From a virus: DNA of 21,449 nt. The notes under the pieces are model-generated. The model ran no database searches. It was given only the letters and a program-made list of their open reading frames with translations, and was not told the origin of the DNA. The stretch spans positions 1-21,449 of the IMG/VR virus record IMGVR_UViG_3300025289_000138; one strand, written 5' to 3'. Below are positions 17,076 to 19,832 of the stretch, piece by piece. Position 1 is the first letter of the stretch; every line of letters starts with the position of its first letter. The position numbers and the translations under genes were made by a program.

Positions 17076-17084
17076 ATCCTAGCT

Positions 17085-17169
17085 TGCCTCACCGAACCGT
17101 GCCTCGCCACGCCTTGCCGCGCCTGGCCCTGCCTCGCCGCGCCGTGCCTCGCCCTGCCTAACCGCGCCT
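17085..17169 (-). repeat. Left pentanucleotide GGCNN array
   Basis: Seventeen successive 5-bp units, all of the form N-[GA]-C-C-N on the plus strand (NGGYN on the transcribed strand), run without a break in phase. The two central C bases are constant and outer bases vary, mostly T/C and A/G/T. It lies just after the end of the 177-residue gene. Reading frames through it (Arg/Gly/Ala-rich) are artefacts of the repeat. Confidence 0.85.
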
Positions 17170-17177
17170 TGACTATC

Positions 17178-17711: not shown

Positions 17712-17758
17712 CGATTCATCCCCTTTCGGAATGAGGCGAGAATCGCTCGCCGCGTGCT

Positions 17759-17843
17759 ACCCTTGCCCTGCCACACCTGACCAGACCAGACCATACCTCG
17801 CCACGCCGCGCCCAGCCTTGCCTTGCCCGGCCGCGCCTTGCCT
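17759..17843 (-). repeat. Right pentanucleotide GGCNN array
   Basis: Seventeen 5-bp units of the form N-[GAC]-C-C-N on the plus strand, same design as the array at 17085-17169. Units vary (GACCA three times in a row, TGCCT, CGCCG, CGCCT), so this is not a simple slippage tract of one unit. It lies about 50 bases upstream of the 177-residue gene's start. Confidence 0.85.
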
Positions 17844-17870
17844 TGTCATAACACTCACGCCAACTATCGA

Positions 17871-17997
17871 GTGCACCATGTGCACCATCAGTTTCCAGAC
17901 TTCTTATAACCCCAACCAACAACAACAAAGAAACCTAATATACCTGCATGGTGCAGAATTGTAAAAAGTCTCAAAAGTGATGGTGCACATGGTGCAC
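17871..17997. repeat. Long inverted repeat with TGGTGCA units; possible replication origin
   Basis: The arms 17871-17902 and 17966-17997 match at 29 of 32 positions when one is reverse complemented, the first 20 perfectly (GTGCACCATGTGCACCATCA). With seven more inner positions the match is 34 of 39. The spacer is AT-richer. TGGTGCA occurs six times in either orientation (17872, 17881, 17949, 17981, 17990, 18051). Iteron-like units with an AT-rich core next to a replication ATPase gene suggest an origin; an extended RNA hairpin is the alternative. Confidence 0.6.
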
Positions 17998-18009
17998 TTC
18001 CATCACAAG

Positions 18010-18060: not shown

Positions 18061-19221
18061 TCATGGAATGATCCCCGACACACCAGCCGTCAGCGACCTG
18101 ATACCGGCATATCCCCACACGCGCTTACCCTTCATTTGATGTTGAATGCGGCTCACGCCGAGCCGTGTCATCACTGTACCGAGTGCTGCCGCGTTCATGC
18201 GGTTCAATGCGCTCGCTTGCGTGCCGAACACGTGCAGCATGATCTCGATACTCGTCATCCACCAATCGTCATTGTGTGCGGAATCGATCTCGAAGTCCTG
18301 CACCAGGATACTCTCGATGGGATCGTCAACGTCATAGCGTTCATTGATCTGTGATGCGTGTTGCATTTCAGCAACTGATAGCAGCCACGATTCACCGTTG
18401 AGGAATGCGGCATACGCTTCAGCCCAGATTTGTTGAACGTCAAGCTTGCTGTATGACCAGTTGATCGCATCGATGTGGCACACCAGGAAACGACGTGAGC
18501 CGGTGGGATCGTTCAGCAGTCCACTCTCGTTGTTCACCGTGCCGATCAGTGAGGCCATTGCGGGTCGGTTGAGATCGTGGTGTCCATACGGCGGTCTCAC
18601 TGTGACCTGCCGCATAGTAATGAAGTGCTTCAGTGCCTCGCGATCAGCGCGCTTGATCGTCGCACCGAGTTCAGCCACCTCCCAGATGAACTTACTCGCG
18701 AGCCGTGCATAGCAGTCCTTATCATCCGGGGTGATCGCTGATTCAATAAAATAAGTTGGATCAGTGCACAGCCAGCGCGCAAACTCGCTCTTGCCGATCC
18801 CTTGCGCGCCGTCCAGCACGAGCATCGGGTTCTGCTCAGCGCGAATGACTTTCGCCACTGCACCGATCAACCACTTGCGCAGCCAGGCGGCAAACACGCC
18901 ATCGCTATCTCGTAAGTGTGAAGTGAGCTGTGCAATGTGATCGGCCTTCCCGTTGCTGGCTGCCAAACATCTGCTGAGGTAAGCGCGGATCGGATGATAC
19001 CGGTTGCGATACGCCAACGCAACGAACGTATCAGTGAGCGCACCCATGTTGTGGATGTCGTGCATGCGCGCGGTATACCGCAACTCAGCCTCGATGCCAT
19101 CGTTCATCTGTGAGCCGTTCACCTCGATGGCGTTGGTACACTCGTTGTAAGCGAACTCGAATCCGATCTGCTTCAATTCTGCTGCAATGTCATCTGGTTT
19201 GGTCTTAGTGGTAGTGGGCAC
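18061..19221 (-). CDS. VapE-type replication ATPase (superfamily 3-like helicase)
   Basis: A 386-residue protein of the virulence-associated protein E family, P-loop ATPases that pair with phage or island primases. Seen: Walker A GAQGIGKS (138-145), ITPDDKDCYARLASKFIWEV then an E-x-A-E-L Walker B region, the Asn-bearing SLIGTVNNES, and the arginine-finger GSRRFLVCHID. The C-terminal 80 residues (from DDWWMTSIEIMLHVFG) fit a winged helix. The N-terminal 125 residues are helical and lack primase motifs. It starts at GTG 19221 with AGGAG six bases upstream. Members of this family probably unwind DNA at the origin. No primase or polymerase is in the window. Confidence 0.85.
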   Translation of the reverse strand: MPTTTKTKPDDIAAELKQIGFEFAYNECTNAIEVNGSQMNDGIEAELRYTARMHDIHNMGALTDTFVALAYRNRYHPIRAYLSRCLAASNGKADHIAQLTSHLRDSDGVFAAWLRKWLIGAVAKVIRAEQNPMLVLDGAQGIGKSEFARWLCTDPTYFIESAITPDDKDCYARLASKFIWEVAELGATIKRADREALKHFITMRQVTVRPPYGHHDLNRPAMASLIGTVNNESGLLNDPTGSRRFLVCHIDAINWSYSKLDVQQIWAEAYAAFLNGESWLLSVAEMQHASQINERYDVDDPIESILVQDFEIDSAHNDDWWMTSIEIMLHVFGTQASALNRMNAAALGTVMTRLGVSRIQHQMKGKRVWGYAGIRSLTAGVSGIIP

Positions 19222-19233
19222 AAGAAACTCCTG

Positions 19234-19431
19234 TTATGGCTCTGGTGCACCTTCCGGGATAAAGTCACCCATGAGAAATGCATGCAAAGCATGTCCTTCA
19301 AGCTCGATGGGATCAGCCGTGCTATTCACACGTTTAATGAGTGCCGATGAATAAGGTGGATCTGTCCAAATGATAAATACTCCGCTTGTCTGTGCCACCT
19401 TCTCAGTATCGATCAGATGCTGAATGGCCAA
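19234..19431 (-). CDS. Unknown 65-residue protein after a structured leader
   Basis: The start is a TTG at 19431 without a ribosome site. The frame is open upstream to about 19515, through the structured leader, but contains no ATG, GTG or TTG there. The protein has a hydrophobic strand (GVFIIWTDPPYSSALIKRV) and an acidic/His-rich middle (DPIELEGHALHAFLMGDF). It ends 12 bases before VapE. No family is recognised. The start is uncertain; an ATT at 19437 is another option. Confidence 0.5.
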   Translation of the reverse strand: MAIQHLIDTEKVAQTSGVFIIWTDPPYSSALIKRVNSTADPIELEGHALHAFLMGDFIPEGAPEP

Positions 19432-19438
19432 TGCAATT

Positions 19439-19555
19439 AACGGGAGTAATGCAAAACTCCCGTTCTCTCTGCGAGTGGTCAGGCGGTCAAGGGTTGCGAC
19501 GTGGCTATCGCGTTACCTGTACCACCCGCAGACAAAACGGGAGCACCCCTTGACC
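19439..19555 (-). ncRNA. Structured leader RNA with two exclusive pairings (switch-like)
   Basis: On the minus-strand transcript GGTCAAGGG (19547-19555) pairs perfectly with CCCTTGACC (19485-19493), closing a 71-base domain that contains a CCCG/CGGG hairpin and a GCGA/TCGC hairpin. Downstream AACGGGAG (19457-19464) can pair with CTCCCGTT at 19439-19446 (ten-base loop) or with the identical CTCCCGTT at 19536-19543. The two cannot form together. A promoter lies just upstream (19619-19647). The layout is like a riboswitch or attenuator. No T run follows the final hairpin, so translation control is more likely than termination. The class is not recognised. Confidence 0.55.
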
Positions 19556-19618
19556 TTTTATTCTTCTTGCCGCGCTGTACCCCAACCGGTTGCCAATCGG
19601 TCGCCGCGCCGCATCAAC

Positions 19619-19647
19619 ATTCTACTCTAGATCGCATCGTCTGTCAA
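19619..19647 (-). promoter_or_regulatory. Strong sigma-70-type promoter for the VapE operon
   Basis: TTGACA (19642-19647) and TAGAAT (19619-19624) on the minus strand with a 17-base spacer. The -35 is perfect and the -10 matches five of six. The -35 overlaps the TGA stop of the zinc-ribbon gene. The transcript would begin near 19612 and include the structured leader. Confidence 0.7.
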
Positions 19648-19832
19648 CGCGTGACATGTTGCTTCATCTGCTGACCAGCAACATGCAACGCGATGCGCTC
19701 GGCTGTCCACTGTCGCAGCTCGGCATGACACCGACCCGCATGCACGTAGAGATTGACGTGCCGCGCACCATCGAGCGCTACCGTGCGATAGGCTGCATCA
19801 AGAGGTTTGCTGCATATGGGACAGGTTGTCAT
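19644..19832 (-). CDS. Small zinc-ribbon-like protein
   Basis: A 62-residue protein starting at ATG 19832, one base inside the vWA stop (TAATG). It begins MTTCPICSKPLDAAYRTV, with a C-x-x-C knuckle at 4-7, and has a second pair in HAGRCH (around 36-41), so one zinc ion could be held by Cys4, Cys7, Cys and His. The C-terminal part is a helix (ELRQWTAERIALHVAGQQM). The frame is open further upstream, but those residues overlap the vWA gene and are less likely. Its partner may be the vWA protein. Confidence 0.65.
   Translation of the reverse strand: MTTCPICSKPLDAAYRTVALDGARHVNLYVHAGRCHAELRQWTAERIALHVAGQQMKQHVTR

Follow-up and report, generated by a model that had tools for sequence, protein, structure and literature searches.

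What kind of element lies between a promoter and the VapE operon of this uncultivated phage, and could it control entry into replication? The window, that is, the whole stretch of DNA analysed, comprises all 21,449 bases of a complete IMG/VR record, and the genes considered here are on its minus strand (Table 1). A preliminary description of the locus had placed a near-consensus promoter upstream of the element, and this promoter is present on the minus strand. Transcription is predicted from the sequence to start around position 19612. The VapE operon named in the same description was also found downstream of the leader: a 65-aa ORF is followed by a VapE-like protein, which matches PF05272 (E 1.7e-43) and phrog_1313 DNA helicase. 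The 65-aa ORF starts with TTG and, as had been noted, has no ribosome site at the normal distance. Its codon score (0.24) is gene-like compared with the means of real genes (0.22) and of off-frame sequences (-0.17). Family searches with this ORF gave no match, and searches for its relatives gave only the phage itself in the viral_contigs collection and none in the phages collection. The ORF contains a DPPY sequence. The idea that it is a fragment of the longer VapE N-terminus of relatives was dropped, since inspection showed no likeness. Upstream, a 19-nt inverted repeat (84%) at 19645-19695 ends in the -35 box, within the end of the preceding 62-aa ORF; it is a possible operator or terminator-like hairpin.

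Table 1 Features of the leader and its operon in the window
Feature	Position	Strand	Remark
Sigma-70-type promoter, TTGACA-17-TAGAAT	19619..19647	(-)	11/12 consensus matches
Leader 5′ part with G+C-rich hairpin CCGATTGG-CAA-CCGGTTGG inside GCGGC..GCGGC	19565..19612	(-)	predicted fold
S1 5′ strand, GGTCAAGGG	19547..19555	(-)	9-bp Watson-Crick match to 19493-19485
Rod helix 5′ strand, includes first CTCCCGTT (19543-19536)	19515..19544	(-)	MFE fold
Apical hairpin P3, GCGAT-AGCCAC-GTCGC	19496..19511	(-)	in both MFE folds
S1 3′ strand, CCCTTGACC, apical loop of rod	19485..19493	(-)	inside CCCTTGACCGCCTGACC
Rod helix 3′ strand; foot GGGAG (19461-19457) ribosome-site-like, buried	19456..19484	(-)	fold prediction
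Apparent 18-nt insertion, TTGCATT / ACTCCCGTTAA / TTGCATT; contains third CTCCCGTT (19446-19439)	19430..19454	(-)	absent from L034
65-aa ORF, TTG start, first in operon	19234..19431	(-)	gene-like codon usage
VapE-like P-loop replication protein	18061..19221	(-)	GTG start behind AGGAG

The 9-bp long-range stem of the preliminary description, here called S1, was recovered with its 53 enclosed nucleotides, as were the two copies of CTCCCGTT and the complementary AACGGGAG (19464-19457, minus strand). These three are the only occurrences of CTCCCGTT or AACGGGAG in the window, where 0.42 are expected. The pairing of AACGGGAG with the upstream CTCCCGTT exists; it is merely the foot of a much longer helix, which the description did not mention. 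In the minimum-energy fold, this rod comprises 28 pairs (11 bp, a 1x1 mismatch, 12 bp, a 1-nt bulge and 5 bp). When 712 windows of 120 nt from both strands were folded, the leader segment on the minus strand gave the lowest z-score (-6.4), and the rod alone gave -7.65 on the minus strand versus -3.6 on the plus strand. The rod is asymmetric and G-U pairs are among its base pairs. The contiguous match of S1 had a shuffle p of about 0.002; by crude duplex energy, S1 is not exceptional for a G+C-rich sequence. The S1 strands are left unpaired in the rod fold. Because only 3 nt link S1 to the base of the rod, the full rod and S1 can hardly coexist. Neither the rod nor the 3′ hairpin has a terminator-like site; after the rod there is only TTTT and then GCATT. 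Thus, the missing U run after a G+C-rich hairpin rules out an attenuator of the intrinsic-terminator type.

The same RNA is present in a second phage, L034 (IMGVR_UViG_3300018082_000004), which came from a set of VapE, DnaJ and vWA relatives. It is located at L034:2912-3018 and shows 76% identity over 111 columns. The expectation that homologues keep the stems by compensatory changes held for the L034 rod, in a comparison of two sequences only: among the 28 pairs, three have two-sided changes, one is lost by a concerted pair deletion and one is broken. Two rod pairs switch between G-C and G-U, and the single-nucleotide bulge is retained. In the two homologues, 98.2% of the cells in the rod are paired, whereas sliding the partner strand gives 48.1% or less. 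The covariation score of the rod was equalled in 49 of 500 shuffles; this control is weak with two sequences, and therefore the support for the rod is good, not overwhelming. The S1 complementarity in L034 (GGTCATGGGG/CCCCTTGACC) has one U-U mismatch, and its contiguous match of 9/10 (p about 0.01) is not independent of the window test. CCCTTGACCGCCTGACC, which contains the S1 3′ strand, is identical in both phages, and P3 has the counterpart GCGAC-AGCCA-GTCGC. The local similarity begins around the S1 5′ strand; the DNA just 5′ of it is little conserved, and the 5′ part of the leader is hardly similar apart from a TGGCAACC motif in the L034 5′ hairpin. The foot of the rod is CGGGAG in both. 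In L034, this GGGAG is 6 nt upstream of the TTG of a DNA methyltransferase ORF (PF01555), which is a normal ribosome-site distance. The gene order there is RNA, methyltransferase ORF, a further ORF and VapE; thus the surrounding gene order differs from that of the window, yet in both phages VapE closes a run of genes that has the RNA at its head. The methyltransferase ORF and the following 177-aa ORF, which has no family match, are at L034:3021-4684 and may form a restriction-modification pair within this VapE module.

In the preliminary description, AACGGGAG was proposed to choose between the two identical CTCCCGTT copies. This choice is not conserved: L034 has no downstream CTCCCGTT copy, and the downstream copy is specific to the window allele. 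Moreover, both pairings cover the same GGGAG, so that choosing between them would not expose it. The downstream (third) copy is flanked by the 7-nt direct repeats TTGCATT; a 7-mer recurs within 30 nt at 0.7% of positions. Removal of one repeat unit leaves GGGAG-TTTTGCA-TTG, a normal start spacing near that of L034, while the distance from GGGAG to the annotated TTG in the window is 25 nt. The 18-nt insertion, as read from the sequence, has probably shifted the TTG of the ORF away from GGGAG in the window allele. A single insertion would explain why there is a second pairing partner and why the ORF lacks a ribosome site. No allele without the insertion was found. Given the 25-nt distance to the TTG, the role of GGGAG in the window depends on this insertion hypothesis. 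In the window, the S1 and rod folds differ by 6.9 kcal/mol with the insertion, compared with 19.9 kcal/mol when it is removed, and therefore the window allele may sit nearer to bistability. Control may be altered or weakened by the insertion in this allele.

A rod over the start of a gene is also present in a sister phage, L033, so that three related phages have this layout. L033 DNA is 84% identical to the window and diverges at 19639, right behind the shared -35; its promoter keeps TTGACA and has TATGAT as the -10. At the same promoter position (L033:4711-4890) is a rod which is unrelated in sequence (z -8.5) and resembles that of the window in build, with 11 pairs, a 1x1 mismatch and 14 pairs. 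The start region that this rod buries belongs to an AAA_25 replication ATPase (AGG before ATG 4889). A helix over the ribosome site of the gene that follows was thus seen both in L034 (GGGAG-N6-TTG) and in the L033 rod. As a separate observation, the window has a second promoter (TTGACA-18-TATACT) and leader at 16048-15921 on the minus strand, where two G+C-rich hairpins within a GTTGAG/CTCAAC stem are followed by AAAGGA ahead of a 114-aa ORF. This hairpin stretch is nearly unchanged in L033 (94% over 126 nt, promoter included).

The order of folding was then considered by equilibrium folding of prefixes, without kinetic simulation and with the L033 stem chosen by eye. In the window, L034 and L033 alike, the favored early fold is a long-range stem that joins the 5′ leader to the apical segment (p 0.84-1.0). 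The rod takes over after its 3′ strand has emerged, and pairing of the ribosome-site segment is then at least 98% in all three. Computation gives the match to a promoter, the covarying rod, the conserved near-perfect S1 complementarity, the predicted folding order and the burial of GGGAG; we infer that the RNA is produced, that translation is driven by GGGAG and that the switch is used in response to a signal. On balance, our modeling favors a cis-acting 5′ untranslated leader: the segment would precede a phage replication operon and control how its first gene is translated. In the proposed mechanism, S1 (GGUCAAGGG/CCCUUGACC) would pair first in the nascent transcript and keep the 5′ strand of the rod in its loop. 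When the rod 3′ strand emerges, the 28-pair rod would oust S1 and bury GGGAG at its foot. Ribosome binding would then be shut off, making the closed state the default. A factor favoring S1 (ligand, protein or other RNA) would free the ribosome site, as would opening or cutting of the rod, for example by a helicase or RNase III. S1 and the inner rod alone could coexist as a pseudoknot with the foot left open. The rod is more stable than the S1 fold by 13 kcal/mol in L034; because the full rod is so much more stable, S1 may never persist without help. The idea of a switch-like structured leader stands in part: two exclusive folds are found in the window and L034, and the rod covaries and buries GGGAG. 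The switch originally proposed is not conserved.

The preliminary description did not recognise the class of the RNA. Rfam searches with the leader gave nothing, whether at gathering scores or with E values up to 5. A search for tRNA and tmRNA gave none. BLASTN of the leader or its core against phages and plasmids gave no relevant match; a 33-nt match in two Streptomyces plasmids was dismissed as chance. In a pattern scan, the structured candidates inspected among the matches listed, beyond the two known elements, were chance-like and in coding sequence. Of the 25 places given by a further scan, the covariance model retained none besides the known two. The covariance model R1 was applied to about 54 related loci, and also to 40 whole contigs and a further 9 VapE loci; it found the window and L034 alone (a match in contig G001 is a duplicate of the window); about 40 related, more distant contigs have no R1 RNA. 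We conclude that the leader RNA is real, conserved and uncatalogued, with two clear members, and that, as modeled, it probably acts in translational control.

Other explanations were weighed against this translational control. The rod might mainly be an RNase III processing site or a 5′ stabiliser of the operon messenger, with a secondary effect on translation, which we consider unlikely. RNase III acts on rods of this size (>24 pairs with a 1x1 mismatch), so the window rod suits it, and L033 shares the arrangement of 11 bp, a 1x1 mismatch and a long helix in unrelated sequence, as expected if double-stranded length counted for more than the sequence. However, a pure processing site would need less conservation than the apical loop and the S1 strands show, and GGGAG is exactly at the foot, at a ribosome distance from the start codon in L034. 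A translational riboswitch of a new class, with a pseudoknot aptamer for a ligand built from S1, P3 and the inner rod and with the outer rod as the off-state, is less probable still. Its attraction is that two exclusive folds are retained in two phages and that the invariant unpaired stretches AGCCA and TTGACCGCC resemble a binding pocket. Nevertheless, the homologues number only two, the downstream genes (65-aa ORF, methyltransferase and VapE) have no common metabolite, and Rfam gives no match even at E 5. Because there are just two clear members and no ligand is indicated, a riboswitch class is not established.

We give equally little weight to the idea that the product is the RNA, which would then be an antisense RNA of the immunity type, like P4 CI or C4, and would act in trans on matching leaders. 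P4 CI and C4 RNAs require complementary targets on both sides (PMC4825925), and the copies complementary to AACGGGAG that flank it upstream of the VapE gene do resemble seqA and seqC around P4 CI (PMC4825925). Identity with P4 CI/C4 was rejected since L034 lacks the third copy; the Rfam C4 model RF01695 was also unmatched, and no second target was found in the phage sequence searched. It is very improbable that the element acts as DNA, as a replication origin or a protein-binding palindrome. Several VapE relatives do have inverted repeats with iteron-like units near VapE, but the rod is asymmetric, contains G-U pairs and covaries as RNA, and the window has a separate origin-like repeat at 17870-17998, for which reason the leader was rejected as the origin. 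That inverted repeat, downstream of VapE, is a near-perfect 40-nt repeat with GGTGCACATGGTGCACT units, and it folds with equal stability on either strand (z -9.7 and -9.8), as a DNA element should. Its placement matches that in relatives such as L213 and L214, where the stretch from VapE to a primase-polymerase-like gene contains iteron-like inverted repeats; 17870-17998 is a likely replication origin. Finally, we give hardly any credence to a functionless fold left by a decaying insertion or a recombination scar: the element is rare, the cassette boundary with L033 falls in the promoter and the window allele has the apparent insertion, yet compensatory changes and a concerted pair deletion are found across two differing contexts.

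Independently of the leader, arrays of a degenerate 5-base unit (GCCNN) are present at 17076-17174 and 17755-17853 of the window, both non-coding, and an ORF at L004:3720-3974 has a translation that suggests a similar array.

Cis translational control of this kind has parallels in known systems. In the phage lambda cIII and N leaders, the messenger has alternative folds and an RNase III hairpin. Like our element, these leaders belong to a phage early messenger in which the ribosome site lies at a stable hairpin and a second fold is available, whereas genes, sequence and architecture differ. In the leader of the MS2 maturation gene, a transient early fold yields to a stable fold that decides access to the ribosome site (PMC6733600). 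This leader and the metastable messengers of the hok/aapA type are like the phage leader in the exchange of an early for a stable fold at the ribosome site. In contrast, our element is the operon leader of a DNA phage, its off-state is a 28-pair rod, its mechanism is predicted, and it has no known sequence relation to them. P4 CI and C4 (Rfam RF01695) also have flanking complementary segments upstream of a phage replication gene; the window differs in that its downstream copy is not conserved and that neither an Rfam match nor a trans target was found. manA, wcaG and further candidate leader RNAs carried by phages are structured 5′ leaders obtained by comparative analysis of environmental phage sequence (PMC2864571). 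They resemble the window leader in being structured 5′ leaders of environmental phages; they have many members and consensus structures, whereas the window leader has two members and no Rfam match.

With these results, a previously undescribed structured leader RNA, for which one clear homologue exists, joins the elements of uncultivated phages that carry VapE replication modules. Leaders that hide a ribosome site are an already known kind, and this leader is uncatalogued. We also entertain, as a rather doubtful extension, a new phage RNA family that gates replication: a pseudoknot of S1, P3 and the inner rod would sense an infection signal and keep open the ribosome site otherwise buried by the rod, and the rod-on-start design would have evolved or been exchanged with different sequences in related phages. 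The rod-on-start layout with unrelated sequence in L033 suggests selection on architecture rather than on sequence, and sequence-based family searches would miss conservation of architecture only. Our findings suggest that the entry of such phages into replication may be timed by RNA folding.
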